Below are positions 402-19,618 of a DNA stretch of 35,595 nt, piece by piece (within the stretch, counting starts at the first letter, position 1; each line of letters begins with the position of its first letter). A program made the translations under genes and the position numbers. The notes below the pieces were generated by a model. The model ran no database searches, was not told the origin of the DNA, and worked only from the letters and a program-made list of their open reading frames with translations. Source of the DNA: Magnetococcales bacterium WMHbinv6 (GTDB lineage: Bacteria > Pseudomonadota > Magnetococcia > Magnetococcales > Magnetaquicoccaceae); the NCBI GenBank assembly GCA_002753135.1, contig PDZV01000038.1, positions 4,491 through 40,085 of the forward strand. The letters are read 5' to 3'.

Positions 402-1484
402 TTAAACCGAAATCGGTTCTCCGATTATCACCACCTCTTTATTTTCCCCTCCTTTACGCGCAAGAACATATTTGCCGTCGGCCATCGCAATGCGTATATC
501 CTTGTGCGTATCACTCAGAATCTCTTTTAACCTTTCCACCGACGGATAACCATCATCACGATACGAAATACATACAATTGCTTGCGAGAAACGTTTCAGG
601 AGAAGCTTAAATGCCTCCTCTTCATCCTCAGCAGAAAACCAACTCTGATCTGGTTTATAGATTGGTTTGTGCGCATAACCGGTATTGACAGATGACTTAA
701 AATCATAATACATTACAAGAGAATCAAGAAAATGATAAAAATTAAAATAATTTGTTTCAGAATAGTTTCTTTTTCTTGAATATGGTGTATCAATATATAC
801 AAAATCCACATCGGTACGTAACTCAAAAGCATCATCATTGGCAAAGTAACATTTTCCAGGTTTTTGTATTGCTTTATATTCCTGTAATTCTCGATAAAAT
901 TTAATCATATGAAGTTCTATTGGTGTATCCCAAGTCTTCTTATTGCCAAACGATCTTTGTACATTCTGCTCTCTCATGGAAAGATTGGCCCTATGAAAGA
1001 GATTATACGGCCTTTTTATTAAAGCAGTTTGGAATAGGCAATAAAAAGCCTCCGATTTTTTTATCTCATCTTCAATTGAAAGAATGTTTTGCGTAATCAC
1101 ATCAATTTGCTCATTCTCAAATTTAGTATAAAATATATTATCGTAAATGTCTGATATATGTTGTTTATAATCAACGCCATCTTTCTTTTGAAACAAACTT
1201 TTTAATTCGTCAACACCAAGACGCATTCCACCTTCAATAAACAATGCTTTCGCATTTACATAGTTTGCCTTCAAAATATCATTATACAAAACATCTTTAC
1301 CCATACTTAACAATAAATGTGTAACAGAACCCGTTCCTCCAAACGCATCCAGACAAGTCTTAAATTCATAGTCGGCAAACAAATTGGCAAGAAACGGTAA
1401 ATATTTTCTCTTACTGCCTTGAAACCGCGTACTGGGCATTGACGCAAAAGTAACTTGATTAGAAAACAAATTGAGCTGCAACAT
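402..1484 (-). CDS. D12-class DNA adenine N6-methyltransferase, partner of the EcoRV-like endonuclease
   Basis: Predicted 360-residue N6-adenine DNA methyltransferase of the Dam/D12 class that would protect host DNA from the endonuclease encoded just upstream. Visible motifs: the N-terminal FQGSK box (about 21-25), the SAM-binding motif DAFGGTG (about 46-52) and motif IV as IDTPYS with Asp near 232, so DTPY replaces the usual DPPY; RNYSETNYFNFYHFLDSL follows, as in this class. I chose ATG at 1484, four bases after the endonuclease stop (TAA 1491-1489). An ATG at 1526 is in frame but would overlap the endonuclease gene by 38 bases and add nothing conserved. The gene is visibly AT-rich compared with the GC-rich recA/parC block, which points to horizontal acquisition together with its partner. 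The sequence specificity is inferred from the neighbour, not from the methylase. Confidence 0.85.
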   Translation of the reverse strand: MLQLNLFSNQVTFASMPSTRFQGSKRKYLPFLANLFADYEFKTCLDAFGGTGSVTHLLLSMGKDVLYNDILKANYVNAKALFIEGGMRLGVDELKSLFQKKDGVDYKQHISDIYDNIFYTKFENEQIDVITQNILSIEDEIKKSEAFYCLFQTALIKRPYNLFHRANLSMREQNVQRSFGNKKTWDTPIELHMIKFYRELQEYKAIQKPGKCYFANDDAFELRTDVDFVYIDTPYSRKRNYSETNYFNFYHFLDSLVMYYDFKSSVNTGYAHKPIYKPDQSWFSAEDEEEAFKLLLKRFSQAIVCISYRDDGYPSVERLKEILSDTHKDIRIAMADGKYVLARKGGENKEVVIIGEPISV

Positions 1485-1488
1485 GACG

Positions 1489-2274
1489 TTAACCTGTTTT
1501 GAGATTTTTATACCGAATATATTCATTAATGTTACTGTATGGAGGTCTATTCATCTCCACCAATTTAGCCATATCTCTAGTAAGATAATTCATCCAATAG
1601 TCATCAAATACCTTTTCACCAAGTTTACTGAAAGGGCCATTACCATCAATAAGATCACTGATATTTGTAACAGATCCTATATTTTTCGTATTACCGCTTC
1701 CCGGGCAATCTGACGCTATACGATATTTTTCCTGTACAAAAAATTTAAAATCATTGATTACTGACTGGATATCAAACAGTTGATCCAAAGAATATTTTTT
1801 CCTCTCATCAATATTTTTTTCAACTCTTGAATAGATTAAACCAAAGACAAGGTGACTAGCATAGCTTGAATAAGGAAAACGCACATTTTTGGCTGAAGAC
1901 CTATCTCTGAAATATCCTGTAAACGCACCAAGCGTCATACCATTTACCGTATTTGAATCAATACGATATGAACTTTTTATGTCAACAGCATATTTATTAT
2001 TATTCTTGTCAACAAATGTCAAATCCGGGTAATGATTTTGAAAGTCAGAAAGAATAATTTGAAAATTATACCTCTCAGCAAATGAAACAAATTTTGGATA
2101 AATTAACAATTCCATAATTTTTGAAACAACTTTTGTATCGACGGAGATCGTGTAAACATTCTTCTTTGTATCAATAAACCCTTTTACAATCCAGTCCCCT
2201 GTATCGGTTGCCACGTCTTCAGCAAAGGATTGAGCGTATTCGGCTAATTGTTCTGAAAAAATGGTGGACATCAT
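1489..2274 (-). CDS. EcoRV-like type II restriction endonuclease (predicted GATATC)
   Basis: About 261-residue type II restriction endonuclease, close to the size of EcoRV (245). It aligns by eye with EcoRV along most of its length: SVDTKVVSKIMELL, QNHYPDLTF, AVDIKSSY, MTLGAFTGYFRD, FVQEKYRIASDCPGSGNT, NIGSV and DYWMNY all have EcoRV counterparts. The catalytic set Glu55, Asp84, Asp98 and Lys100 matches EcoRV Glu45, Asp74, Asp90 and Lys92. The base-reading R-loop GSGNT (about 192-196) and the Q-loop QN before HYPD are kept, so GATATC recognition is the best prediction. The start is ambiguous among GTG 2280 (overlapping the previous stop as GTGA), ATG 2274 and ATG 2271; GAGGTGA just upstream suits 2274 or 2271. 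Strongly AT-rich. It is co-directional with the upstream Sel1 gene and probably translationally coupled to it. Confidence 0.9.
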   Translation of the reverse strand: MMSTIFSEQLAEYAQSFAEDVATDTGDWIVKGFIDTKKNVYTISVDTKVVSKIMELLIYPKFVSFAERYNFQIILSDFQNHYPDLTFVDKNNNKYAVDIKSSYRIDSNTVNGMTLGAFTGYFRDRSSAKNVRFPYSSYASHLVFGLIYSRVEKNIDERKKYSLDQLFDIQSVINDFKFFVQEKYRIASDCPGSGNTKNIGSVTNISDLIDGNGPFSKLGEKVFDDYWMNYLTRDMAKLVEMNRPPYSNINEYIRYKNLKTG

Positions 2275-2276
2275 GC

Positions 2277-3482
2277 TCACCTCGGCCTGCCGTTGCGCAC
2301 CATCTCATCGGCCTGGGCGATCTGTTCCGGGTTCATTTGTCGGGTGACGGTGGCGCAAAAGCGGCCCAGGTTGGGGTTGCGCAGGGCGGCGCGGTTGAGC
2401 CAGACGTAGGCTTGTACCAAATCCTTGCCCACACCGCGCCCTTTGGCATACATCACCCCCAGATTGAACTGCGCCATCACCTCACCCTGCACCGCTGCCC
2501 GCAGGTAGTGACGCACCGCCTCCTCTTCGTCCTGAATGACTCCCTCGCCCTTTTCGTAGATCACTCCCAGACTGAACTGGGCAGCGCTGTTGCCCTGTTC
2601 GGCGGCTTGTTGAAACCATTTGACCGCCTCGGGCAGGTCCACCTCGGTGCCACTGCCTTGCTTGTAGAGCAGACCCAACAGATTCTGCGCCCGGGCATCC
2701 CCCTGTTCTGCAGCCAGACGTGCCCAGCGCAACGCCTCTCCGGCATCCTGGGTAACGCCACGTCCGCTGTGAAACATCAACGCCAAATTGAACTGTGCCC
2801 GTGGCTCACCTTGATCGGCAGCCAGGCGAAACCAATGCAACGCCTCGGCAAAAGATTGCCCCACCCCTCGTCCTTCCAGATACATCGCCCCCAATTCAAA
2901 GCGGGCCAAGGCGTTGCCCTGATAGGCGGCACGACTGAACCAGTGAATCGCCTCCAGATCGTTGCGCTCCAGATATTTGCCGCTGTAATACATCCGTCCC
3001 AGGTTCAACTGGGCAATCGGATGGCCCTGATCAGCCGAGCGCCGCAACCACTGCAGGGCTACGGCATCATCCCGGGCCACCTCCTGCTCTCCTTTGTGGT
3101 AGAGACGGGCCAAGGCAAGTTGCGCCTCCATATCCCCTTGTTCGGCCAACTGGTGCAAGCGCTTGACAACACTGACCTCCTCCTCCACTTTCGCCTTTGC
3201 TGGCACCTCCGGCAAAACCGGACTCTCTGGCACCATCTCTGCGGGCAAAGCACCGCTGGCATAGGGTTGCGCTTCGCTCTCTTTGTTGTGTACCGTTGCT
3301 GCCGCCCGCTTGCGTCCGGCAGAGATCCGCCGGGCCATCGACCGCTCACGCAAAAATGGTCGATGCCTGCTGCGTCCTTCATGCAGCGGATCATACTGAC
3401 GGTGCCGCCACCACAAATATCCGGCCACCAAGATCATGACCACACAGCCCGCCACGATGATCCCGAATATGTTTGTCATCAT
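2277..3482 (-). CDS. membrane-anchored Sel1-like (SLR/TPR) repeat protein
   Basis: 401 residues. Residues about 5-22 form one hydrophobic segment (IFGIIVAGCVVMILVAGY) followed by basic WWRHR, so a single N-terminal anchor with a cytoplasmic body is likely. A charged linker runs to about residue 110, then about seven Sel1-like repeats of 36 residues follow, each with the A.QG...AQ..LG.MY..G.GV..D..EA..W...AA pattern. Sel1 repeats are protein-interaction scaffolds; the partner is not evident. Start ATG 3482 (a second ATG directly follows) has GAGGGGG upstream. It lies 36 bases downstream of parC on the same strand, and its stop codon overlaps a possible GTG start of the endonuclease gene. The last repeat and the C-terminal tail look complete, so the restriction genes did not truncate it. 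Confidence 0.9.
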   Translation of the reverse strand: MMTNIFGIIVAGCVVMILVAGYLWWRHRQYDPLHEGRSRHRPFLRERSMARRISAGRKRAAATVHNKESEAQPYASGALPAEMVPESPVLPEVPAKAKVEEEVSVVKRLHQLAEQGDMEAQLALARLYHKGEQEVARDDAVALQWLRRSADQGHPIAQLNLGRMYYSGKYLERNDLEAIHWFSRAAYQGNALARFELGAMYLEGRGVGQSFAEALHWFRLAADQGEPRAQFNLALMFHSGRGVTQDAGEALRWARLAAEQGDARAQNLLGLLYKQGSGTEVDLPEAVKWFQQAAEQGNSAAQFSLGVIYEKGEGVIQDEEEAVRHYLRAAVQGEVMAQFNLGVMYAKGRGVGKDLVQAYVWLNRAALRNPNLGRFCATVTRQMNPEQIAQADEMVRNGRPR

Positions 3483-7004: not shown

Positions 7005-7118
7005 CGAGCGGGCCGCACCATTTTCAGCAAGCGACCCTGCCAAGCCTTCCGATTACCGGTTTTACGGTCCTAGGGTAACAGATTTTGACGTCTGAAAACA
7101 AAGACCAAAAAGAACCTT

Positions 7119-7147
7119 TTGCCAATTCACGAAAAAATGCGTATCTT
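7119..7147 (+). promoter_or_regulatory. sigma70-type promoter for pilT
   Basis: TTGCCA at 7119-7124 and TATCTT at 7142-7147 are separated by exactly 17 bases, which would start transcription near 7154, about 50 bases before the pilT ATG at 7206. This also argues against upstream in-frame ATGs as the real start. Prediction from consensus match only. Confidence 0.45.
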
Positions 7148-7205
7148 GTGCAGGTCGTGGAACGGACGGCAATGGCTGCTACAGGTTGTACAAGGATCCC
7201 CATCG

Positions 7206-8243
7206 ATGGAAATTGCGGAATTATTGGCCTTCGGAGTCAAAAACAGTGCCTCCGACCTGCATCTTTCGGCAGGCATGCCCCCTTTGATCCGCGTCGACGG
7301 CGACATGCGCCGCATCAACCTGCCTGACCTGGACCACGAACATGTCCACGCCTTTGTCTACGACATCATGAACGACAAGCAGCGCAAAGAGTACGAAGAG
7401 TCGTGGGAGGTTGATTTTTCCTTTGAGTTGCCGGGTCTGGCCCGTTTTCGCGTCAACGCCTATCATCAACATCGCGGTGCCGCTGCCGTTTTTCGTACCA
7501 TTCCTTCGACCATTCTCACCCTGGAACAGTTGGCCGCCCCGGCCATCTTCAAGGAGTTTGCCGAAATGCCCCGTGGTCTGGTGCTGGTCACCGGCCCCAC
7601 CGGTTCCGGCAAATCCACCACCCTGGCGGCGATGATCGACCACAAAAACCAACACGAATACGGCCATATTCTCACTCTGGAAGATCCGATCGAATTTGTC
7701 CATCACTCGCAAAAATGTCTGATCAACCAACGGGAAATCCGCCGCGACAGCCACAGCTTTGCTGCCGCCCTGCGCTCGGCCCTGCGTGAAGATCCCGATA
7801 CCATCATGGTCGGCGAAATGCGCGACCTGGAGACCATCCGTCTGGCTCTTTCCGCCGCCGAAACCGGTCATCTGGTCTTTGCCACCCTGCATACCACCTC
7901 TGCGGCCAAAACCATCGACCGGGTGGTCGATGTCTTTCCGGCGGCGGAAAAAGAGATGATCCGCACCATGCTCTCCGAATCGCTGCGGGCCGTCATCTCG
8001 CAACATCTGCTAAAAAAACGCAACGGCGGTCGCGTCGCCGCCCACGAAATCATGGTCGCCACGCCCGCCATCCGCAATCTGATTCGGGAAAATAAAATTG
8101 CCCAAATGTACTCCTCTATCCAGACTGGTCGTAAATTGGGTATGCTGACTTTGGAACAATCTTTGCTTGAACTGGTTACCGCCGGCACAATCAGCCGCGA
8201 GGTGGCGCGTGACAAAGCCAATATCAAGGAGTCTATCGTTTAA
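7206..8243 (+). CDS. pilT: type IV pilus retraction ATPase PilT
   Basis: 345-residue secretion-type hexameric ATPase that depolymerises the type IV pilus for twitching and retraction; it acts at the cytoplasmic face of the inner membrane. Walker A GPTGSGKST at about 130-138, the Asp box around LTLEDPIEF, Walker B IMVGEMRD and the His box GHLVFATLHTTSA are all intact. The C-terminal AIRNLIRENKIAQM and LGMLTLEQSL stretches are characteristic of PilT rather than PilB. The start ATG 7206 (MEIAELLAFG) follows an AAGGA and matches the PilT N-terminus; in-frame ATGs at 7119 and 7137 would add 23-29 unrelated residues and precede or overlap the likely promoter. It is followed after 28 bases by two FlgO-like envelope genes on the same strand; no pilus subunit or assembly gene is nearby. 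Confidence 0.95.
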   Translation: MEIAELLAFGVKNSASDLHLSAGMPPLIRVDGDMRRINLPDLDHEHVHAFVYDIMNDKQRKEYEESWEVDFSFELPGLARFRVNAYHQHRGAAAVFRTIPSTILTLEQLAAPAIFKEFAEMPRGLVLVTGPTGSGKSTTLAAMIDHKNQHEYGHILTLEDPIEFVHHSQKCLINQREIRRDSHSFAAALRSALREDPDTIMVGEMRDLETIRLALSAAETGHLVFATLHTTSAAKTIDRVVDVFPAAEKEMIRTMLSESLRAVISQHLLKKRNGGRVAAHEIMVATPAIRNLIRENKIAQMYSSIQTGRKLGMLTLEQSLLELVTAGTISREVARDKANIKESIV

Positions 8244-8271
8244 TCCTGTTGCCATCGGAAAAAGAGATTTC

Positions 8272-8943
8272 ATGAAAAAATTGATGAATATCCACCCTCT
8301 CAGATTTGCATTGTCCGCCTTGGCCCCGGTTGCGTTGGCGATGGGTCTGACGGTTGCAGCCCTGCCTGCTGCCGCTGGATCCCTCTCCTCGGCCCTGAAC
8401 CTGGAGCCACAGCCCGGTTCCTCCTTTTTGGAGGTTCCCGCCGCCGCCAACGGAGAAGCCGATTTGATCCGCGTCGGCTATATGCTGGCCGATGGGCTGG
8501 TCGCCGAACTGCGGAAAAACCATCCGCCCCTGGGTTACCACCACCCCATGCTGGTTGCCACCTTCGTCAACCGCAGCAATATGGACATGAGTTCGGAAAT
8601 GGGTATGGTCATGGCCGACCATATCTCCTCACGGGTTACCCAGCACGGTTATACTGTCCTGGAGCCCAAACTGCGCAAAGAGTTTTCCATCCGCAAAGAG
8701 CATGGCGAATTTATGCTCTCCCGCGATATCGATAAACTGTTTCAGGAAAACCGCGCCTACGCTGCCATTGTCGGCAGCTATACCGAATCGCGCAGTCTCC
8801 TTGATTTTACGGTGAAAATTGTCGAAATCAAAACCCGTCACGTGCTGGCATCCGCCGATCTGCGCCTGCCCCTGGGTGAAAACGCCCGTGACCTGTTGAT
8901 GAATCTGGGTGGGGGAACCAGCATGGAGGTGGTTGATAAATGA
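8272..8943 (+). CDS. FlgO-family exported protein (first of pair)
   Basis: 223 residues. The N-terminus is basic (MKKLMN) followed by a hydrophobic stretch ending near ALPAAAGS, a signal peptide of the Sec/SPase I type; I see no lipobox cysteine. The mature part follows the FlgO outer-membrane protein pattern: ADGLVAEL, LVATFVNRSNMDMSSEMG, ISSRVTQHGYTVLEPKLRKE, HGEFMLSRDI, YAAIVGSYTES, and a final strand ending HVLASADLRLPL. FlgO proteins in Vibrio are outer-membrane proteins linked to flagellar function; here no flagellar gene is present and the neighbour is pilT, so a role in the pilus-bearing envelope is an inference. Start ATG 8272 follows AAAAGAGA. The stop overlaps the start of the next gene by four bases (ATGA). 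Confidence 0.75.
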   Translation: MKKLMNIHPLRFALSALAPVALAMGLTVAALPAAAGSLSSALNLEPQPGSSFLEVPAAANGEADLIRVGYMLADGLVAELRKNHPPLGYHHPMLVATFVNRSNMDMSSEMGMVMADHISSRVTQHGYTVLEPKLRKEFSIRKEHGEFMLSRDIDKLFQENRAYAAIVGSYTESRSLLDFTVKIVEIKTRHVLASADLRLPLGENARDLLMNLGGGTSMEVVDK

Positions 8944-9527
8944 GCATCCGCACCGCAAGCAAACCCCTCGCCCTACTGGCCCTGCTCTCTGCCGTCACGC
9001 CACTGCTCAACGGTTGTTTGACACAGCACCCCGATTATCCGCTGGTCTCGCAACCGGTGGGTGAACAGCGGCATCTGGGTCTGGAAGAGGCCAGCTATCT
9101 GGCTGCCGACAGCCTGGTGGTGCAAGCCCGCGACAAACTCAAACCCCGGCAGACCATTCTGCCCGCCAGCTTTGTCGATGACAGAAATCTGGAACAATCC
9201 TCGGCCATGGGTCGCATGCTGGCGCAACAGGTCTCCTCTCGCCTGACCCAGGCCGGTCATTCGGTGATCGAAATCAAGCTGCGCAAGAGTGTCCGTCTGG
9301 TCAAGGGTGAGGGTGAAGGTCAATTTCTCCTCTCGCGCGAGCTGGAAAAAATTGCCGAGTTCCACAACGCCTCTGCCGTCCTGGTCGGCAGTTATGTCGC
9401 CACCCCCAGCATGCTCTATGTCAACACCCAGTTGGTGCTGGTCAAAGGTGGGGTGGTTGTCGCCTCGCAGGATTATAAAATTCCCCTCACCCGCGAACTG
9501 CGGGCCCTGCTCGAACCAGGCACCTGA
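8940..9527 (+). CDS. FlgO-family lipoprotein (second of pair)
   Basis: 195-residue paralogue of the preceding protein. It begins with a signal sequence that ends in a lipobox, LLNGC (Cys near 26), so it should be a lipid-anchored outer-membrane protein. The FlgO-type pattern recurs: AADSLVVQARDKL, ILPASFVDDRNLEQSSAMG, VSSRLTQAGHSVIEIKLRKS, GQFLLSREL, ASAVLVGSYV and GGVVVASQDYKIPL. It overlaps the previous gene by four bases, so the two are probably made in a fixed ratio; one lipidated and one soluble partner suggests an envelope complex (inference). A strong terminator follows about 45 bases after the stop. Confidence 0.8.
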   Translation: MSIRTASKPLALLALLSAVTPLLNGCLTQHPDYPLVSQPVGEQRHLGLEEASYLAADSLVVQARDKLKPRQTILPASFVDDRNLEQSSAMGRMLAQQVSSRLTQAGHSVIEIKLRKSVRLVKGEGEGQFLLSRELEKIAEFHNASAVLVGSYVATPSMLYVNTQLVLVKGGVVVASQDYKIPLTRELRALLEPGT

Positions 9528-9571
9528 TCCCGCCCTTACGGGCTTAAGATCCAGGCTTCCCGACTCTGTTT

Positions 9572-9609
9572 AAGGCTTCCCGACTGTTTGGCAGCGGGAA
9601 GCCTTTTTT
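9572..9609 (+). terminator. rho-independent terminator after pilT-flgO-like operon
   Basis: An 11-bp perfect stem (AAGGCTTCCCG at 9572-9582, CGGGAAGCCTT at 9595-9605) with a 12-base loop is followed by a T run to 9609. The left arm with its following bases (AGGCTTCCCGACT.TGTTT) is also present once more just upstream at about 9553-9571, a short direct duplication. Confidence 0.9.
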
Positions 9610-9625
9610 GCCCCTTTGACAACGA

Positions 9626-10219
9626 TCAACTCAACCACTGGGCCAGAATATCGGGATGGATTTCCCAACCAAAAAAGCCGGCAAACCCCAGCAAGGAGCC
9701 AAAACCACCAAAAAAAATCGCCAGCAGCAGCAACCAGCGATGCCGTGTCAAGGCACTGATGCCCAACATGGCGATGGCGATGCCCATTCCTGCCTCGGCC
9801 ATATCAAACTGATCATCGCGAAAATTAAGATCTTCGTAGGTTTTTTCCCAATCCTTGGCCTGTTGTTGCAACGCCTCCTTCTCTTTCTGGTAGCGTTCTA
9901 TCTCCTGTCGGGCGGTGGCGATGCGCTCATGCAAGGCCGACAGATAGTCCGCCGCTGCCCCGGTGCTGCGCACTTGATCCAACAGCAGGCTTTGCAGCTG
10001 GTTATCGGCAATATTCTGCTTGGTACTCTTGGCCTGATAATAGGCCCAGGTATCCGCCGCCTTGACCTGCGCCTGGCTCATCGCCTGGGCAATATTGCCA
10101 TCTTTGACATTGAAAATACCCATCAAAATAGCCAATACGGTCACCAAAGCGGAGGTGATGTTGTTGTATCTCTCCTCTTCTGCCGCACGATCGGTCTCGT
10201 TTGGGGTCTGCTCTGCCAT
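9626..10219 (-). CDS. DUF4337-like membrane protein
   Basis: 197 residues. One N-terminal hydrophobic segment (about 22-36, ITSALVTVLAILMGIF) is followed by a long, charged helical stretch with likely coiled coil (about 85-130, IATARQEIERYQKEKEALQQQA) and two C-terminal membrane segments (about 142-155 and 162-185, the second rich in Gly/Phe). The motif AADTWAYYQAKSTKQ is characteristic of DUF4337 proteins, whose function is unknown. Start ATG 10219 is chosen because AGGAGG sits just upstream; an in-frame ATG at 10273 lacks such a site. Transcribed convergently with the pilT operon and divergently from the ODP operon. Confidence 0.75.
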   Translation of the reverse strand: MAEQTPNETDRAAEEERYNNITSALVTVLAILMGIFNVKDGNIAQAMSQAQVKAADTWAYYQAKSTKQNIADNQLQSLLLDQVRSTGAAADYLSALHERIATARQEIERYQKEKEALQQQAKDWEKTYEDLNFRDDQFDMAEAGMGIAIAMLGISALTRHRWLLLLAIFFGGFGSLLGFAGFFGWEIHPDILAQWLS

Positions 10220-10367
10220 GTTGTTTCCTCCTGAAGGGTTGCCATGGATGATGCCCTCTGTGGCACCTGCCAACCTGCATCATACCCTCTCTGCCAGCAC
10301 AGAGACAGGAGAGAAACAACCATTGACACCCGAAAGTGGGCACCCGATACTTGCCACCACAGTGATC

Positions 10368-10390
10368 ATGTTGCCGGGTATTGGCAACAT
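10368..10390. promoter_or_regulatory. candidate operator: 8-bp inverted repeat upstream of the ODP-GGDEF-GH17 operon
   Basis: ATGTTGCC (10368-10375) and GGCAACAT (10383-10390) are perfect inverted arms around a 7-base spacer, 50-73 bases upstream of the ODP gene start and within the divergent spacer it shares with the DUF4337-like gene. The symmetry and spacing fit a dimeric regulator site, but a hairpin in a leader cannot be excluded. Confidence 0.4.
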
Positions 10391-10440
10391 CTGGCGAAGG
10401 GAGTTCGCATTTTGACCATCTGGGACGATAAGGAAAACGT

Positions 10441-11286
10441 ATGCACACCATCCTCAATCATAACATTGATCTGGACAAACCTGTCCAATTGAATCGCGGC
10501 GTTTATTGGGTCGGTACGACTTCGACCGGCGGTGGCGTGCCGGCCAATCCCTACCTGATTATCGATAACGATGAGGCGGTGTTGATCGATGGCGGCAGCC
10601 GCCCCGACTTCAGCACCATTATGCGCAAAATTTTGCAAACGGGTATCTCACCAGAGCAGATTCGTTATCTGGTCTACCAACATTATGACCCGGACCTGTG
10701 CGGTTCGATTCCCAATCTGGAACAGATTATCGGCCATAAAAATCTGCGCATCGTCTCAAAAAAAGAGAATATTCCCTTCATCCGTCACTATTCGGTGCAA
10801 TCGGAGATTCTCTGCATCGACGAGATGCAGCGCAGTTTAAGCCTGCAATCCGGTCGTCAGCTGCATTTTCATCCCACACCCTATGCCCATTCGGCAGGCA
10901 GTTTTGTCACCCTGGATCAAGCCAGCGCCGTCCTGTTCAGCAGTGATTTATGCGGCAGTGTCTGCCTCTCCAAACAGTGGAATCTCTTTGTTGAATTGCC
11001 TGACCACTGTTTAAGCTGTTTTCCTGCGCCAGAATATCAGCAGGCCGCCTCGTGTGGCAAACTGCATGACTGCCCCTGGCAGGCCGTGCATGCGTTCCAC
11101 CGCGAAGTGATGCCCAGCAGCCGCGCCTTGCACCATGCGGTCTCGGTTCTCGCAAGCATCGATGCCGACATCGTCGCGCCACAACATGGTTTTATCTACC
11201 CGGGCAAAGAATCGATTCAGGCAGTCTACCGTTTTCTGCGCGGACTCAACGACATTGGCATCGATCACATTCTTGGTCCGGCGTGA
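10441..11286 (+). CDS. ODP-type metallo-beta-lactamase-fold protein (putative O2/NO-binding di-iron sensor)
   Basis: 281 residues with the metallo-beta-lactamase fold of flavodiiron proteins but no flavodoxin domain. Motifs: LIIDNDEAVLIDGG (about 39-52), VYQHYDPDLCGSIPNL (His81, Asp83, Asp85), PTPYAHSAGSF (His150), LFSSDLCGS (Asp169) and APQHGFIYPG (His249). Together these give a di-iron ligand set in the order expected for ODP (oxygen-binding di-iron protein) domains, which bind O2 in bacterial chemotaxis and c-di-GMP signalling proteins. ODP versus a general MBL hydrolase is decided by the HYDPD variant and the downstream GGDEF gene, so it is partly inferred. Start ATG 10441 has AAGGA upstream. 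The next gene starts 12 bases after the stop. Confidence 0.8.
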   Translation: MHTILNHNIDLDKPVQLNRGVYWVGTTSTGGGVPANPYLIIDNDEAVLIDGGSRPDFSTIMRKILQTGISPEQIRYLVYQHYDPDLCGSIPNLEQIIGHKNLRIVSKKENIPFIRHYSVQSEILCIDEMQRSLSLQSGRQLHFHPTPYAHSAGSFVTLDQASAVLFSSDLCGSVCLSKQWNLFVELPDHCLSCFPAPEYQQAASCGKLHDCPWQAVHAFHREVMPSSRALHHAVSVLASIDADIVAPQHGFIYPGKESIQAVYRFLRGLNDIGIDHILGPA

Positions 11287-11298
11287 CGGAGAGAAGCG

Positions 11299-12021
11299 AT
11301 GATCGAACACAATCTTCTCTTTTTCTCCATGGAATCGGGGTTACATCGATCCTATGGGGCCATGATGACCCGTCTGTTGGAACAACAGGCACAACTGGCT
11401 GACCAGCAGATCAACGAACAACTGCTGCAGGCGCTGGTACAAGAGTTTGTCCGGGTGGAACGACAATTGGCGGAAGCCCATCGTCAGGTGGTTGCCCTCT
11501 CCCGCACCGATGGCTTGACCGGTATTGCCAACCGGCGCTGGTTTGACGAATCTCTGCACAGCGAATGGTCCCGGGCCGTGCGCGGCTCTGGTACCTTGGG
11601 CATGTTGTTGATGGATATCGACTGCTTCAAACTCTACAACGACAACTACGGCCACCCCGCCGGAGATGCCTGTCTGCGCCAGGTAGCGCAAGCGGTGCAA
11701 AAAGTGCTGCACCGCCCCCCCGATCTGGTGGCCCGTTATGGCGGTGAAGAGTTGGTCTGCCTGCTGCCCGGCACCAATCTCGCGGGGATCAAAAGGGTGG
11801 GTGAACAGATTTTGCAGGCCATCCGGGCGCTGGCCATCCCCCATCACTTTTCCAAGGTGCCAGACGGTATCGTCACGGTCAGCATCGGTGGCAGCGCCTG
11901 CCAACCCACTGCCGAGCTTGAGGCCGCCTCCCTGTTGCAGCAGGCCGACCAAATGCTCTACCATGCCAAAGAGAATGGCCGCAACCAGTTGACCGTCGCC
12001 CAGGAAACAGGGCAACGCTAG
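11299..12021 (+). CDS. GGDEF diguanylate cyclase
   Basis: 240 residues. An N-terminal helical region (about 15-68, rich in Glu/Gln, likely coiled coil) precedes a complete GGDEF domain: RTDGLTGIANRRWFDE, LMDIDCFKLYNDNYGHPAGD, the active-site motif GGEEL (about 148-152) and VTVSIGGSA. RPPD lies five residues before GGEEL, which is the position of the inhibitory I-site, so product inhibition is predicted. It makes c-di-GMP from two GTP. No sensor domain is fused; the ODP protein encoded 12 bases upstream is the obvious candidate for that role, through the helical N-terminus (inference). Start ATG 11299 follows GGAGAG. The GH17 gene starts nine bases after the stop. Confidence 0.93.
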   Translation: MIEHNLLFFSMESGLHRSYGAMMTRLLEQQAQLADQQINEQLLQALVQEFVRVERQLAEAHRQVVALSRTDGLTGIANRRWFDESLHSEWSRAVRGSGTLGMLLMDIDCFKLYNDNYGHPAGDACLRQVAQAVQKVLHRPPDLVARYGGEELVCLLPGTNLAGIKRVGEQILQAIRALAIPHHFSKVPDGIVTVSIGGSACQPTAELEAASLLQQADQMLYHAKENGRNQLTVAQETGQR

Positions 12022-12030
12022 GGAGTGATC

Positions 12031-13662
12031 ATGCGTTTTCTGCCTGCTCTGGCGGCCTGGCTGGCCGCCTTGCTGTTTGCCACCCTCTTCTGGCACCACA
12101 GAGGTCAAGAGGTGGTGCTGCCTGATGTTCCTGCCGGGCGTTATCAATGCCTCTCCTACGCCCCCTTCCGCGACGGGCAGACCCCGTATGATCCCCATCT
12201 GTTTATCACCCCGGCGCAGATTGAAGAGGATTTAACACAGCTGGCCCCTCTCACCGCCTGCGTGCGCACCTATTCGGCCACGCAAGGGCAAGGGGCTGTG
12301 GTGGAACTGGCGGAGAAAAATGGGCTGCAGGTACTGCTTGGCACCTGGATCGGACCGGACAAGGAGATCAACGGCCAACAGATAGCCGCCACCCTGGCAG
12401 TGGCCAAACCCGGCGTGGTGCGCGCCTTGATTGTCGGCAATGAAGTGCTGCTGCGGCGCGAATTGAACGCCGCCCAGTTGATCGAGGTGCTGCAAACAGT
12501 GCGCAACCGCACCTCCCTGCCCATCACCTACGCCGACGTTTGGGAGTTCTGGCTGCAAAATCCTCAAGTTGCCGAACATGTCGACTTTCTCACCATCCAC
12601 CTGTTGCCCTACTGGGAAGATCATCCGGTCGGTGTGGCACAAGCCCTGAAGCATGTGCAGGATATTCTCGTCAAAATGCGGGCCACCTTTCCCGGCAAGC
12701 CAATTCTGGTAGGAGAAATCGGCTGGCCCAGTGCCGGTCGCAGCCGTCAGGATGCCGTGCCCGGTCGGATCGAACAGGCCCGCTTTATCCGCGAATTTAT
12801 CGCCCTGACCAGCCGTCAGGAGATAGCCTATAATTTGATCGAAGCCTTTGATCAACCCTGGAAACGGTTTCAGGAGGGGACAGTGGGCAGCCATTGGGGA
12901 CTCTTCGACCATGCCCGACAGGTAAAATTTCCTTTGACCGGTCCGGTCAACGCCCTGCCAAACTGGCCTCTGCCGGTGGCTCTGGGCGCATTGCTTGCCC
13001 TGCTGTTGTTGCTGCGTTGCGGGCAACTTTCTCTGCCCCGTCTATTCGCCCTGGCCGCGTTGGGCTTTGCCAGCGGCGGGCTGGTTTTTTGGCGTTGGCA
13101 ACAACTGAGCGAGGCCAGTCAAAACCGCCTGGACTGGGCCCTGGGCGTGGCCGGGTTGGGTCTGCTGCTTGCTGCCACCGCCATGATTGCCGCTTTGGTC
13201 AGCAACAGCAAACCCTCCTGGCTGACCGCCTCCCCCTGTACCCTGCAGCAACTGCGCAACCTGCTGCGCCAGCGTCGCCGACCGACTGAGATGACAACCG
13301 AACAGGTGTGGAGTGGCCTGTTGCAGGCGGCAACCCTCTTTTCAGCGACCTTGACTGCCCTTTGTCTGGTCAGCGATGGACGGTATCGAGACTTTCCGAC
13401 CAGCTTGTATTTTTTGCCGGTGCTGTTGCTCTGGCTGCGCTGGTGGTTGCAGGGGGTTCGCCCGCAGGGGCGTTTGGAAAACGTATTGGGCGTGATGTTG
13501 CTGCTTTGTGCGGCCTGTGGTGTGGCCATCGAACTGCCGGTCAATCGGGAGGCGATGCTGTGGCATGGCCTGTTGTTGGCTATGGCGGTGCCGCTGCTGC
13601 CGTTGACAGCGTGGCGTCATGGCGGGGCCGGACATCCCACACCGCCAGCAGGCCCAGTATGA
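12031..13662 (+). CDS. membrane-anchored glycoside hydrolase family 17 (beta-1,3-glucan) protein
   Basis: 543 residues. An N-terminal hydrophobic segment (about 5-21) is followed by a GH17-type barrel: CLSYAPFRDGQTP, VRTYSAT, LLGTWIGPDKEIN, the acid/base motif VGNEVL (Glu138) and the nucleophile motif VGEIGWPS (Glu229). From about residue 310 the chain has several membrane segments. This catalytic-plus-polytopic arrangement is found in bacterial GH17 proteins encoded near NdvB-type glucan synthases, where they act on beta-1,3-glucans by hydrolysis or transglycosylation. Start ATG 12031 has AGGGAG about six bases upstream; a GTG at 12025 is in frame but too close to it. No synthase is in the window. 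The 3' end overlaps the opposite-strand gene 13580-13963 by 83 bases. Confidence 0.85.
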   Translation: MRFLPALAAWLAALLFATLFWHHRGQEVVLPDVPAGRYQCLSYAPFRDGQTPYDPHLFITPAQIEEDLTQLAPLTACVRTYSATQGQGAVVELAEKNGLQVLLGTWIGPDKEINGQQIAATLAVAKPGVVRALIVGNEVLLRRELNAAQLIEVLQTVRNRTSLPITYADVWEFWLQNPQVAEHVDFLTIHLLPYWEDHPVGVAQALKHVQDILVKMRATFPGKPILVGEIGWPSAGRSRQDAVPGRIEQARFIREFIALTSRQEIAYNLIEAFDQPWKRFQEGTVGSHWGLFDHARQVKFPLTGPVNALPNWPLPVALGALLALLLLLRCGQLSLPRLFALAALGFASGGLVFWRWQQLSEASQNRLDWALGVAGLGLLLAATAMIAALVSNSKPSWLTASPCTLQQLRNLLRQRRRPTEMTTEQVWSGLLQAATLFSATLTALCLVSDGRYRDFPTSLYFLPVLLLWLRWWLQGVRPQGRLENVLGVMLLLCAACGVAIELPVNREAMLWHGLLLAMAVPLLPLTAWRHGGAGHPTPPAGPV

Positions 13663-13963
13663 AGCCGGCAGCAGCCCAGGAGACATTATAAAAGGCCAAT
13701 CCGGCAGCTCCCACCGCCATGGCCAGACCTCCCCAGAGCATACCTGGTGCCAGCAGAGCAATCCCCCCCAGGGCCGCCGCCAGATAACCGATCAGTTGAT
13801 GGTGAACCGCCAGAATCAACCCCAGACGCAACGAACACCACCAGGGCGGGGTCGCTGCCTGGCAGAGCAAACCGATACTCTCCGGCTCCACCCCATAGCG
13901 ACGGACCAACCCCATCGCGGCCCAGATCAGCAGCGATCCTCCGACAATCAACCAGTGCTTCAT
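13580..13963 (-). CDS. small polytopic membrane protein, convergent with GH17
   Basis: 127 residues, almost entirely hydrophobic: segments near 3-18, 44-60, 62-75 and 79-98, with a conserved-looking PPWWCSLR motif and two other cysteines or tryptophans. The family is not certain; similar small membrane proteins accompany GH17/NdvB-type glucan loci, which would fit this position, but that is a memory-based inference. Start ATG 13963 has a GAGAAGAGA purine run upstream. Its last 83 bases are antisense to the end of the GH17 gene. Because that gene's C-terminal tail is hydrophobic and low in conserved residues, either reading frame could tolerate the overlap. If it is not a gene, the open frame is an antisense shadow, but the membrane pattern beyond the overlap argues for a gene. 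Confidence 0.6.
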   Translation of the reverse strand: MKHWLIVGGSLLIWAAMGLVRRYGVEPESIGLLCQAATPPWWCSLRLGLILAVHHQLIGYLAAALGGIALLAPGMLWGGLAMAVGAAGLAFYNVSWAAAGFILGLLAVWDVRPRHDATLSTAAAAPP

Positions 13964-14456: not shown

Positions 14457-16373
14457 TCAACGCGCCAAAGGGTGATGTACCGCATACTGATTGATCACCT
14501 CCAGCAATCGCTTTTTGCGAATCGGTTTGGTAAGATAGAGGTCACAGCCGGCCTGCTGACTGCGCGTCTCTTCGCCCTCCAGGGCATGGGCAGTCAGGGT
14601 GATGATTGGCAGACGCTGTTGCCCCTGCTCCTGTTCCCAACGGCGAATACGCCGCGTCGCTTCATAGCCGTCCATCACCGGCATTTGCACATCCATCAAC
14701 ACCAACTCAATGCCACCTGCCAACACCCGCTCATAGGCTTGCAGGCCATCGGCCACCACCTGCAGACGATGACCACTGCCCTGGAGAAAAATACGGATCA
14801 ACTCCTGATTCTCCACCATATCCTCCACCAAGAGAATGGATAAAGCCCCCTCTCGACCGGCGTTGCAACGGTTTTGTACCGGCATCTCTGCCGCTTGCAA
14901 CGGCAGCCAAAGGCGGAAACAGCTGCCTTGACCAATCCGGCTCTCGACCTCAATGCTCCCCTCCATACGCTCCGCCAGGCGACGCACCAGGGCCAATCCC
15001 AAACCTACCCCACCATAATGGCGCGTGTAGCTGCTGTCCACCTGGGTAAAATAGTCAAAGATGCGGTGCAAATCGCCTTTGGCAATGCCAATACCGCTAT
15101 CCTCAACCTGCAGCAGCAGTTTTGACCCATCCTGATCGGTCCCGACACGCAACCACACTCCGCCCCGGTCAGTAAATTTAATCGCGTTATCAAGCAGATT
15201 GCTTAATATCTGGCGCAGGCGCAGGCCATCCACCATCAACCATGGCGGCACATCCGCATGGATCTCGTATTGCAACGACAACCGCTTGGCCGCCGCAATA
15301 TCCTGAAACGGTTCCATCACCTCTGCCAACAACACCCGTAACGCCACCGCTTTCGTTTCCAAACGCAAACGATCCGTCTCCAAGCGGGATAAATCGAGGA
15401 TTTGATTGACCATGATTATCAAATGGTTGCCCGCCCCTTGCAAGCGGGCGAGCAGCTCCTTCTGTCTGGCATTAACAGCCGTCTCTTGCAGCAAATCGCT
15501 CATACCGATCATGATGTTGATCGGGGTGCGGATTTCATGGCTCATCAAGGCCAAAAATTCACTCTTGGCCTGACTGGCCCGCTCCGCCGCCTGACGCGCC
15601 TCCTCTAATGCCCTCTCTGCCATCCGCTGTTCGGTCACATCCCGCATCACCGCCATGACCGAATGGATATCCTCTGCTACCACCTCGACCGTGGAGATTT
15701 CCACGATACGTTTTTGTCCATCTTTGCGGGTGATCGTCCACGACTCCGCCTGCAGGTGATCCCCACAACGCATGCGCTCCATGCGCTGCCGCGCCTTCTC
15801 CTGCACCTCTGGATCCACATAGACCGTCTGATACCAACCCAGACGATTGATTTCTGAGAGCGTATAACCGGTCAGGCGCTGCATGGCCGGATTCCATACC
15901 GTAAAATGAACATAAGGGGGCTGACAAACGCCATGACAGACCGCAATCCCATCCACCTCTGCCGCAATCACCGATTGGGCAAAAGCCTCAGCACGCATAT
16001 CTTCATGCATGACAACCACTTCACGCACCTGTTGCTGCTGATCAAAGACCGGATACAAGGTGGTCCGCAGCTGCAGCTGACCCTGTATCTGCCCACCACT
16101 TTCCCGCCTCCGATCATACAGCAGCGGACCAACCACCCGAACCTCTCCTCTAAAGGCGCGGCGCACCTCCTCTTTCACGCCCAACTGATCCAACTCCTGA
16201 TCCTGTAGCACGTTGTAACCAACCTCTTGCAGCCAGGACAAGCTCACACCCCACATTTTTTCCCACGCCGAATTGACCAGCACCGGCCTGCCATCGGCAG
16301 CAAAAACCTGCATCGCGACCGGACTGGCCGCCATTATCGCCTGCAATCGCCTCTCTGCTTGATCTTCCGACAT
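14457..16373 (-). CDS. hybrid sensor histidine kinase (PAS-PAS-HisKA-HATPase-REC)
   Basis: 638 residues without a membrane segment, so cytosolic. Order: PAS-like region about 10-135; second PAS with PAC about 155-250 (ending VMAVMRDVTEQRMAE); HisKA with the phosphorylated His279 in MSHEIRTP; HATPase with the N box LLDNAIKFTD, G1 box DSGIGIA and GVGLGLALV; a C-terminal receiver with phospho-acceptor Asp561 in LVLMDVQMP. All catalytic residues are present. Start ATG 16373 (MSEDQAERR) is chosen because the PAS domain begins shortly after; an in-frame ATG at 16490 would add 39 residues that overlap a receiver remnant and show no domain. No partner regulator is adjacent. The receiver is similar to the broken receiver fragment immediately upstream. 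Confidence 0.92.
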   Translation of the reverse strand: MSEDQAERRLQAIMAASPVAMQVFAADGRPVLVNSAWEKMWGVSLSWLQEVGYNVLQDQELDQLGVKEEVRRAFRGEVRVVGPLLYDRRRESGGQIQGQLQLRTTLYPVFDQQQQVREVVVMHEDMRAEAFAQSVIAAEVDGIAVCHGVCQPPYVHFTVWNPAMQRLTGYTLSEINRLGWYQTVYVDPEVQEKARQRMERMRCGDHLQAESWTITRKDGQKRIVEISTVEVVAEDIHSVMAVMRDVTEQRMAERALEEARQAAERASQAKSEFLALMSHEIRTPINIMIGMSDLLQETAVNARQKELLARLQGAGNHLIIMVNQILDLSRLETDRLRLETKAVALRVLLAEVMEPFQDIAAAKRLSLQYEIHADVPPWLMVDGLRLRQILSNLLDNAIKFTDRGGVWLRVGTDQDGSKLLLQVEDSGIGIAKGDLHRIFDYFTQVDSSYTRHYGGVGLGLALVRRLAERMEGSIEVESRIGQGSCFRLWLPLQAAEMPVQNRCNAGREGALSILLVEDMVENQELIRIFLQGSGHRLQVVADGLQAYERVLAGGIELVLMDVQMPVMDGYEATRRIRRWEQEQGQQRLPIITLTAHALEGEETRSQQAGCDLYLTKPIRKKRLLEVINQYAVHHPLAR

Positions 16374-16392
16374 GGTCACACCCGAACAGGTT

Positions 16393-16665
16393 CTACACCA
16401 AAAAATGTTTTGCGAATTGTACTCTGCTTTCAAATTCAAGGCGCGAAAAAAGGGGCTCCCGCCTCCAAGCAAGGGCAGCTTGCCAGACAAGCTGCCGGAT
16501 CAGGGGCAACAGGTGCTGCTTGCGCACCGGTTTGGCCGGATAATGGTCACATCCGGCCATGCGACTGCGCACCTCTTTGCCGCTCAGGGCACTGGCCGTC
16601 AAGGCGACAACCGGCAGGCGCGTCCGTTGCTTTTCGCTTTTCCAGCGGCGAATGGGATTGGGCAA
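16393..16665 (-). pseudogene. C-terminal remnant of a response-regulator receiver domain
   Basis: The frame PIRRWKSEKQRTRLPVVALT, then ASALSGKEVRSRMAGCDHYPAKPVRKQHLL, reproduces the second half of a hybrid-kinase receiver domain, including the conserved Lys of the AKPVRK motif. It parallels IRRWEQEQGQQRLPIITLTA in the kinase gene just downstream. The phospho-acceptor half (the DVQMP..DGYEATR part) is missing: upstream of PIRRW the frame reads unrelated sequence. No start codon with a ribosome site is present. I read it as what is left of a second hybrid kinase or regulator, probably a tandem paralogue lost by deletion. About 270 bases without a gene follow to the next start. Confidence 0.7.
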
Positions 16666-16813: not shown

Positions 16814-16843
16814 TTGTTGCAAGCCATCATTTTCCTCTATTAT
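16814..16843 (+). promoter_or_regulatory. possible sigma70 promoter of the GGDEF/EAL gene
   Basis: TTGTTG at 16814-16819 and TATTAT at 16838-16843 are 18 bases apart, in an AT-rich stretch about 95 bases before the start codon. An alternative -10 (TATAGA at about 16849) exists, so the exact start is uncertain. Confidence 0.35.
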
Positions 16844-16936
16844 TTTGCTATAGAGAAAATTTATCGTGCTTTTTTACATCGTGAAACATCGTTGCGAAAC
16901 ATCGTCTGCCAGGGAAGGAGAGAGGGGTTTTCGAGG

Positions 16937-19618
16937 ATGACATCAACCCATAACGATCTCATTGCTGCCAAAAGGCATATTATCATTCAATGGTTCGTTG
17001 CTCTATATTTATTGATATTGCCATCTGCGTCCCATGCCGAACGCACGCTGTCGGTCGGCGTCTATGACAACCAGCCCGGTGTTTTCAGCGAAGCCAACAG
17101 CGGACAAATCCGCGGCTTTTATATCGATATTCTTGAGTATGCCGCCAACAAGGAGGGCTGGAAACTCAACTACCAACTCGATACCTGGCCCAACCTGCTC
17201 AAACAACTGGAACAGGGGGAGATCGATCTGCTGGTGGCCATCGCCCACACGCCAGATCGGGCCAAACGATTTGAATTTACCAATGAAATGGTCTTTTCCA
17301 ACTGGGGTCAGGCCTATGTGCGTGACAGCAAGTTGCAATCGGTTCTCGATCTGACCGACAAACAGATTGCCGGTGTGGCCAACGACATCTACTCGACCAA
17401 TTTCAGCCAACTCTTGAAAGGGCTCAACATCTCCCATCACTGGCAGGAGCATGCCACCTATCAACAGGTGATGCAGCACGTAGCCAACGGCAAGGCTGAT
17501 GCTGCCATCCTGCCCCGCTCTGCCGGTTTTGTCCTCGAAAAACAGTTCAATCTGATCCGCAGCCCGATCATCTGCTGCCCGATGGAGGTCCGTTACGCCG
17601 CCCCCAAAAACAAAAATCAAGAGATTCTCAGCCGTCTGGATGGACATCTCAAGGAACTCAAGGCCGATAAATCCTCTTATTATTACCAGTCTTTCAACCG
17701 TTGGTATACCGACAGCGCCCAGGAAGGTATGCCAGCCTGGATGCTCTGGACCGCCCTCACCGTTGCTGGCGGTTCCCTGGTGATCATGGTGGTACTGCTG
17801 ATCCACAAAAAGCGCAAAGAGAAAGAGCTGGCCCAGGCGCAAATGATCGCCATGCTGAAAACCCAGGAGTCACAAAGCGTACAGACCCTGAATATTCTGC
17901 TCAAAACCGCCTTGATTCCCATGTCGCTGGATCAACAGCTGCGCCATATTCTGGAAACACTGTTTACCATGAGTTGGTTTCCTCTGCTGCCCCAGGGAAC
18001 CATCTACCTGGTCAATCAGGATAAAGGTGCGTTGCAACTGGCCGCCTGTGTCGGTTTGGATCCCGAACAACTGGAACACCCGGAACTGCCCGGCAAAAGC
18101 AGCTTGAATCCGGAAAATCCGGCCATCAACTACCATGTTGATCGCGCCCATGGCCATTACCAGATCCCCATCCAGTCGGCCAACAGCGTCTTCGGCCTGC
18201 TCAATCTGTATGTGCCGGCAGAACACCAGGCGCAACAAAAAGATAAAGAGTTTCTCACCTCGGTGGCCATGACCATCGCCGCCATGGTGGAACGCAAATA
18301 TCTGGAATACAAAGTACAAAAACAGGCCGAAATCGATGAACTGACCGGTTTGCCCAACCGGGCACTGTTCCACAATCGCCTGGAACGGGCCATCGCCGTT
18401 GCCGATCGCACCCATACGGAAGTGGTGTTGATGTTCATTGATCTGGATCGCTTCAAGCAGGTCAACGACACCATGGGCCATAAAGCCGGTGATCACCTGC
18501 TGCAGGAGGCGGCCAAACGACTGCTGGCCTGCGTGCGCACTACCGACACCGTCTCCCGCCTCGGTGGGGATGAATTTACCATCATTCTGCCCAAATCGAC
18601 CCCTCTGGTCTACGTCGAATATATTGCCCTGCGCATCCAACAGGAGATGGCGGCCCCCTTCCATCTCGAGGAAGGCGTCGCCGAAGTCTCTGCCAGCATC
18701 GGCATCACCATCTATCCTCGCGATGGGGCGGACATGGATCAGCTGCTGCAAAGTGCCGATACCGCGATGTATCATGCGAAAAATTCCGGGCGCAACTCCT
18801 TCAGCTTTTTTGATTACGCCATGATGGCCGAAGCCATCGAACGGCTGGAAATCGAAAAAGCGCTGAAACTGGCCATGGAAAAAGAGGAGTTGCTGGTTTA
18901 TTACCAACCAAAGGTCAATCCGCTTACCGGGCGCACCGCCGGCATGGAAGCACTGGTCCGCTGGAAAAAAAATCAATCCGAATTTGTCTCACCGGGGCTG
19001 TTCATCCCCATCGCCGAACAGTCGGCCTTGATTGTCACCATCGGCACCTATGTTCTGCATCAAGCCTGTCGGCAAACCAAACGCTGGCTCGATGCAGGCT
19101 ATGGCCCTCTGTGCGTCTCGGTCAATCTCTCGGTCCGTCAGCTAAAACAAGAAGAGGTTCTGCTCAACACTCTGCAGGAGATTCTCCAGGAGACCGGTTT
19201 GCCTGCCTCTGCCCTGGAGGTGGAAATTACCGAAAGCATGATGATGCAAAATGTCAACAGCGTGGTGGCCCTGTTGCACAAGGTGCGCGACCTGGGAATT
19301 AAAATCTCCATCGATGATTTTGGTACCGGCTACTCTTCCTTAAGCTCCCTGAAACATCTACCGATCCAAACCTTGAAAGTGGATCGCTCCTTTATCACCG
19401 GTGTCGGCGAAGATCAGGATTCGGCAGCCATCGTGCAGGCCATCATTGCCCTGGCCAAACAATTGAATTTGAAAATTGTCGCCGAAGGGGTGGAAAATCG
19501 CCAACAAGTGCAATTTCTCTCCCAGTTGGGCTGTGATGAAATCCAAGGCTACTACTACGGCAAACCGATGAGCAGTGAGGATTTTAGCGCCTTTTTGCAA
19601 CAACCGCCGACGACTTAA
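16937..19618 (+). CDS. periplasmic-binding-domain sensor with GAF, GGDEF and EAL domains
   Basis: 893 residues. A signal sequence or N-terminal anchor (about 16-35, ending SASHA) leads to a type 3 solute-binding domain (about 37-262, LSVGVYDNQPGVF through LDGHLKELKADKSS) in the periplasm. One membrane span follows (about 270-290), then a GAF-like domain (about 310-460), GGDEF with intact LGGDEF (543-547) and an upstream I-site RTTD, and EAL with EALVRW (671-673), EITESMMM, DDFGTGYSSL, KVDRSFI and VAEGVEN. Both cyclase and phosphodiesterase residues are present, so either or both activities are possible. It probably couples a small periplasmic ligand such as an amino acid to c-di-GMP turnover. 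ATG 16937 is preceded by a GAGG; an in-frame start at 16814 lies on the likely promoter. It converges with the VOC gene two bases away. Confidence 0.92.
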   Translation: MTSTHNDLIAAKRHIIIQWFVALYLLILPSASHAERTLSVGVYDNQPGVFSEANSGQIRGFYIDILEYAANKEGWKLNYQLDTWPNLLKQLEQGEIDLLVAIAHTPDRAKRFEFTNEMVFSNWGQAYVRDSKLQSVLDLTDKQIAGVANDIYSTNFSQLLKGLNISHHWQEHATYQQVMQHVANGKADAAILPRSAGFVLEKQFNLIRSPIICCPMEVRYAAPKNKNQEILSRLDGHLKELKADKSSYYYQSFNRWYTDSAQEGMPAWMLWTALTVAGGSLVIMVVLLIHKKRKEKELAQAQMIAMLKTQESQSVQTLNILLKTALIPMSLDQQLRHILETLFTMSWFPLLPQGTIYLVNQDKGALQLAACVGLDPEQLEHPELPGKSSLNPENPAINYHVDRAHGHYQIPIQSANSVFGLLNLYVPAEHQAQQKDKEFLTSVAMTIAAMVERKYLEYKVQKQAEIDELTGLPNRALFHNRLERAIAVADRTHTEVVLMFIDLDRFKQVNDTMGHKAGDHLLQEAAKRLLACVRTTDTVSRLGGDEFTIILPKSTPLVYVEYIALRIQQEMAAPFHLEEGVAEVSASIGITIYPRDGADMDQLLQSADTAMYHAKNSGRNSFSFFDYAMMAEAIERLEIEKALKLAMEKEELLVYYQPKVNPLTGRTAGMEALVRWKKNQSEFVSPGLFIPIAEQSALIVTIGTYVLHQACRQTKRWLDAGYGPLCVSVNLSVRQLKQEEVLLNTLQEILQETGLPASALEVEITESMMMQNVNSVVALLHKVRDLGIKISIDDFGTGYSSLSSLKHLPIQTLKVDRSFITGVGEDQDSAAIVQAIIALAKQLNLKIVAEGVENRQQVQFLSQLGCDEIQGYYYGKPMSSEDFSAFLQQPPTT

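Follow-up and report, generated by a model that had tools for sequence, protein, structure and literature searches.

A putative two-protein signalling unit of a di-iron ODP and a diguanylate cyclase in a Magnetococcales bacterium, and its relatives with other outputs

Known ODP systems and related inputs

The ODP of Treponema denticola functions together with a receptor that has no sensor of its own (PMC7666581; PMC6978683). These two proteins, the ODP TDE2498 and the cytoplasmic receptor TDE2496, resemble the pair described here in that a separate ODP goes with an output without sensing module, and the solved ODPs from T. denticola and Thermotoga maritima (PDB 6qnm, 6r9n, 6qrq, 6qwo) have the same fold and the same di-iron ligands as the ODP reported below. 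They differ in that the outputs here are cyclases, kinases, phosphodiesterases or phosphatases that have an N-terminal adaptor in common and in that the ODPs here carry an additional insert with four cysteines. Already in 2019, ODPs were described that are coupled to separate outputs, that lie in operons with signalling genes or that form fusions with signalling domains (Muok et al., 2019; summary in PMC7319448). In that summary the adjacency to signalling genes is reported in general terms, and a shared adaptor, the swapping of four output classes and a four-cysteine insert are not among the features described. The statement in the initial annotation of our locus that no described system has its parts was therefore too strong, because a sensorless chemoreceptor with its ODP partner and signalling operons containing ODPs were, according to the summaries, both on record in 2019. 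Within the literature searched, the adaptor, the insert and the exchange of outputs among four classes nevertheless appear to be new beyond the summaries of the 2019 work.

ODP input and GGDEF output are also combined in two fused proteins of the genome studied here (L001, 400-2226, minus strand; L002, 1339-3195, plus strand), and fusions of this kind are frequent among members of the order. Unlike the pair, they are single chains and lack the four-cysteine insert, and their linker is not detectably related to the adaptor, no homology of the two having been found (hhalign probability 1%). Separate gas sensors that control separate outputs are known from H-NOX proteins with their partner cyclases or kinases (e.g., Legionella Hnox1/Lpg1057 and Shewanella HnoX/HnoK), which, however, have the haem-containing H-NOX fold, bind NO and are not homologous to the ODP pair. 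A non-haem di-iron input to c-di-GMP enzymes is likewise found in hemerythrin-GGDEF and hemerythrin-HD-GYP proteins (e.g., VcBhr-DGC and Ferrovum Bhr-HD-GYP), but these have another fold and are fused in one chain. A census of c-di-GMP inputs from 2022 includes hemerythrin and H-NOX and does not mention ODP.

If the scheme proposed below is correct, a portable adaptor of about 60 residues puts four unrelated signalling enzymes under the control of a soluble di-iron sensor in ten or more phyla, with anaerobes or magnetotactic bacteria at oxygen gradients making up many of the hosts. A non-haem two-protein input would then have to be added to c-di-GMP signalling, and for many ODP neighbours that lack annotation it would become possible to predict the output class.

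The locus

The genes are located in a stretch of 35,595 nucleotides from Magnetococcales bacterium WMHbinv6 (the window), whose source genome is congeneric with Candidatus Magnetaquicoccus inordinatus UR-1. The closest homologue (74% identity) is in genome G004. The genes for the ODP, the cyclase and a GH17-type protein follow each other on the same strand (Table 1). The gap is 12 nt between ODP and cyclase, and between cyclase and GH17 it is 3 nt if the latter starts with GTG at 12025 or 9 nt if it starts with ATG at 12031, the start from which the initial annotation had counted its 9 bases. The ATG, which is immediately preceded by AGGGAG, is more likely the start; GGAGAG is found 5' of the ATG of the cyclase.

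Table 1. Features of the locus, in positions of the window
Feature	Position	Strand	Remarks
DUF4337 protein gene, divergent neighbour	9626-10273	-	Pfam DUF4337, E 6e-44
ODP gene	10441-11286	+	281 aa; Pfam ODP PF19583, E 2.2e-55
Four-cysteine insert of the ODP	11008-11073	+	C190, C193, C205, C211
GGDEF diguanylate cyclase gene	11299-12021	+	240 aa; PF00990, E 1.1e-46
Adaptor (helical N-terminal region of the cyclase)	11323-11502	+	Profile common to ODP partner proteins
GH17 membrane glucan enzyme gene (predicted)	12025-13662	+	phmmer to PDB 4wtp, E 7e-20

The ODP and its predicted metal sites

The ODP matches PF19583 with 188 bits (gathering cut-off 27.2) over profile positions 2-194 of 194. Its predicted di-iron ligands are H81, D83, D85, H150, D169 and H249; they align with the di-iron positions in 6qrq and 6qnm, two of the solved ODPs, and all six columns are invariant in the 88 aligned homologues (88/88). 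The AF2 model has a mean pLDDT of 90.3, and when it was used as a Foldseek query the best matches were the chemotaxis-sensor ODPs of T. maritima and T. denticola (top 6qrq/6qwo, E 1e-18, TM 0.72–0.74 by query length). Sequence and model thus support the assignment as a metallo-beta-lactamase-fold di-iron sensor protein with a complete predicted site.

The insert has the pattern CxxC-x11-C-x5-C, in the subfamily generally CxxC-x(n)-C-x(5-6)-C. Each of its four cysteines is at least 90% conserved across 72 aligned rows, one of them being missing in a few members (L045 and some Riflebacteria). The insert was found neither in the short ODPs L048-L050 nor in the ODP-GGDEF fusions examined, and none is visible in the alignments to 6qrq and 6qnm. 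We infer a metal site, either Fe-S or Zn, and the Zn could be structural; model confidence in this region is low, with a pLDDT of about 60.

ODPs of a second type without the insert (L049, 8841-14992, and L048) lie ahead of genes for giant PAS/GAF hybrid kinases. A gene for a response regulator-GGDEF protein lies near these ODPs, which would be another route from an ODP to c-di-GMP, by phosphorelay.

Pairing of ODPs with signalling outputs

When 84,980 species genomes were scanned, 80 loci were obtained, and 78 pairs were kept after duplicates and loci without a called partner had been dropped. The partner is HD-GYP-like in 27 pairs, a HisKA kinase in 18, a GGDEF protein in 17 and a SpoIIE/PP2C phosphatase in 16 (9 of these last calls checked by Pfam, the other 7 resting on a sequence motif). 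ODP and partner genes are closely spaced, with a median gap of −4 nt over the 78 loci, 76 of which overlap or are separated by no more than 13 nt. The phyla named in the records are Pseudomonadota, Thermodesulfobacteriota, Bacillota, Synergistota, Nitrospirota, Nitrospinota, Planctomycetota, Chloroflexota, Actinomycetota, Myxococcota, Mycoplasmatota, Methylomirabilota and Riflebacteria, which we count as at least ten because some of the MAG assignments may be contaminated. Many of the hosts are anaerobes.

On the ODP tree, a quick tree with several weak branches, the output class changes at least seven times. Besides the ODP of the locus, the window genome encodes a paralogue of the same subfamily with a histidine kinase gene behind it (L004), and the N-termini of this kinase and of the cyclase are 44% identical over 45 residues, the output domains being unrelated. 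In relatives the gene after the ODP encodes a GGDEF protein, a histidine kinase or, once, a GAF-HD-GYP protein. In the loci examined the paired output was always GGDEF, HD-GYP-like, histidine kinase or PP2C and never a sensorless methyl-accepting chemoreceptor. Since the same gene order is found in many genomes, the adjacency of ODP and cyclase is not due to chance, and the recurrence of the pair in at least ten phyla with exchanged signalling enzymes makes it look like a plug-in sensing unit. These findings support the view that ODP and cyclase are one conserved unit of two proteins.

Most of the HD-GYP-like partners show HHE..(D/N)G.GY with a variable last residue, often not P, and thus have a variant of the GYP signature (L089, L098, L104, L105, L114 and L120).

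The cyclase and its adaptor

The GGDEF domain of the cyclase is complete (159 bits, positions 3-161 of 161), with a GGEEL active site and an RPPD inhibitory site (I-site). The RPPD I-site is established as the site of product inhibition in GGDEF proteins, and its presence suggests that the cyclase is inhibited by its product in addition to its proposed control by the ODP. A recognisable sensor domain was not found in the cyclase. Its residues 15-69 are predicted by the structure model to form a single long helix that runs into the GGDEF domain, in agreement with the helical, sensorless N-terminus noted at the outset.

This N-terminal region of about 60 residues is shared by partners with different outputs. 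An un-iterated HMM built from the GGDEF partners alone found 67 of the 78 partners at E ≤ 0.01, including every histidine kinase and PP2C partner, and HD-GYP partners as well. The non-partner matches at E < 1e-5 among 4603 ORFs (L078, L096, L110 and L124) are all just downstream of an ODP, positions that fit true partner genes missed by ORF calling. In the genomes of 61 relatives the adaptor profile had 15 matches, 14 of them directly beside an ODP of this subfamily; the only one away from an ODP is weak (E 7.6e-5). Of the GGDEF and histidine kinase proteins of the window genome, only the two ODP partners match the N-terminal part of the partner profile, the dozens of others being matched in its downstream part alone.

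The adaptor of the window cyclase matched no Pfam family, and the adaptors of 72 members matched four families weakly, with one or two members each. A search of the PDB with the adaptor HMM gave no solved chemoreceptor and no convincing match, so that this search gives no support for a coupling element in common with the chemotaxis ODPs; the best of the weak matches was a designed helical-repeat fusion (E 0.014).

Between pairs with different outputs, adaptor distances correlate with ODP distances (r 0.34; null 0.14 ± 0.05; 0 of 2000 shuffles as high). Such coevolution across outputs is of modest extent, and co-inheritance may account for it. Taken together, the shared profile, the adjacency to ODPs, the changes of output and the tracked divergence suggest that the adaptor is the part recognising the ODP, and it is most likely the element that couples ODP and cyclase.

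The GH17 gene

The initial annotation had added the GH17 enzyme as a third part to the split ODP-cyclase unit. Its ODP with a di-iron site (as predicted from sequence), its cyclase with helical N-terminus and its division of sensor and cyclase between two proteins are supported by the results given above; the third part is not. The GH17 protein scores 25.6 bits against Pfam, under the cut-off of 28.2, but its GNE and GEIGWPS motifs are at places equivalent to those in 4wtp, and from its sequence it is predicted to be a GH17-type membrane glucan enzyme.

It should be noted that of the gene order seen in the window only the ODP-cyclase part recurs more widely: GH17 follows the pair directly only in the window and in Ca. 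M. inordinatus UR-1 (L037/L056), with the same order and similarly short gaps, and the other ODP-cyclase loci have no GH17 downstream. Conversely, GH17 orthologues without adjoining ODP-cyclase are present in six genomes (G003, G005, G006, G018, G021 and G040), and in L152 and L155, which have larger proteins containing GH17, the pair is likewise missing nearby. In the sister species G006 the locus (L148) is collinear with window positions 7055-9525 and 12022-13916, and 9526-12021, which comprises DUF4337, ODP and cyclase, is replaced by 875 non-aligning bases. Since the sister species keeps the GH17 locus without this block, block and GH17 are separable. Furthermore, Pfam recognised no c-di-GMP-binding domain in the GH17 protein. 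That GH17 is the dedicated output of the pair in a three-part unit leading from O2 to glucan is, despite the arrangement common to the window and UR-1, extremely improbable, and the three-part unit was rejected on the separate distribution and on the sister-species locus without the pair. GH17 is probably an independent local neighbour of the unit.

Proposed mechanism and alternatives

We consider it very probable that ODP and cyclase work together as a signalling unit of two proteins, in which the ODP senses and acts through the adaptor, GH17 being independent. The T. denticola ODP, which functions with its sensorless receptor, is a precedent for this. In this scheme the ODP would be a soluble sensor with a di-iron centre that takes up O2 or reacts to the iron or redox state, whereupon the conformation changes. 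It would act on the cyclase via the N-terminal helical adaptor, whose helix continues into the GGDEF domain, and would in this way set c-di-GMP synthesis. In other bacteria the same input of ODP and adaptor would serve a different output, namely an HD-GYP-like phosphodiesterase, a histidine kinase or a PP2C phosphatase. The nature of the signal (O2 or redox), the contact of the two proteins and the direction of regulation are what we infer here, and O2 may not be the physiological signal. A model of ODP and cyclase read through as one chain, without dimer context, had a pTM of 0.61 with both domains folding well, a value that does not amount to a confident docking.

Proteins with a metallo-beta-lactamase fold are often enzymes, and flavodiiron proteins also match the ODP fold. 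The ODP could accordingly be a flavodiiron-like enzyme that consumes O2 or NO, or else a hydrolase, with no more than a common operon linking it to the signalling genes. This is very unlikely, as judged from the pair having no flavodoxin or rubredoxin partner, from the partner being, in all cases and across at least ten phyla, a signalling output that carries the one conserved adaptor, and from chemotaxis sensors being the closest solved relatives. It is less improbable, though still unlikely, that the ODP reports redox or iron status mainly through the four-cysteine site and not O2 at the di-iron site. The conservation of the cysteines in this subfamily, their absence from the fused and short ODPs and the anaerobic life of many hosts speak for such a reading, whereas the invariance of the six di-iron ligands, the low model confidence of the insert and the possibility that its cysteines hold a structural Zn speak against it.

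Only tentatively, and with more doubt than belief, do we extend the two-protein scheme to a widespread, unnamed modular family, in which a dual-site ODP (di-iron plus a four-cysteine Fe-S or redox site) with one conserved helical adaptor and interchangeable outputs, namely synthesis and breakdown of c-di-GMP, phosphorylation and dephosphorylation, would integrate O2 with the redox or iron state.

Other genes in the window

Just upstream of the locus, after a gene for a type II/IV secretion ATPase, there are two consecutive genes for FlgO-family proteins (8167-9527, plus strand), a possible motility context. Downstream, a PAS hybrid histidine kinase (14457-16490, minus strand) and a GGDEF-EAL protein that also has an extracellular solute-binding domain (16814-19618, plus strand) are encoded, so that the neighbourhood contains further c-di-GMP and signalling genes. 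Near the start of the window an EcoRV-type restriction endonuclease (PF09233, E 4e-104) stands beside a D12-class adenine methyltransferase (402-2280, minus strand), the two forming a type II restriction-modification pair. Towards the other end, 29615-30637 and 34444-35367 (both minus strand) are PD-(D/E)XK/YhgA-like putative transposase genes, each with a DUF4351 tail.
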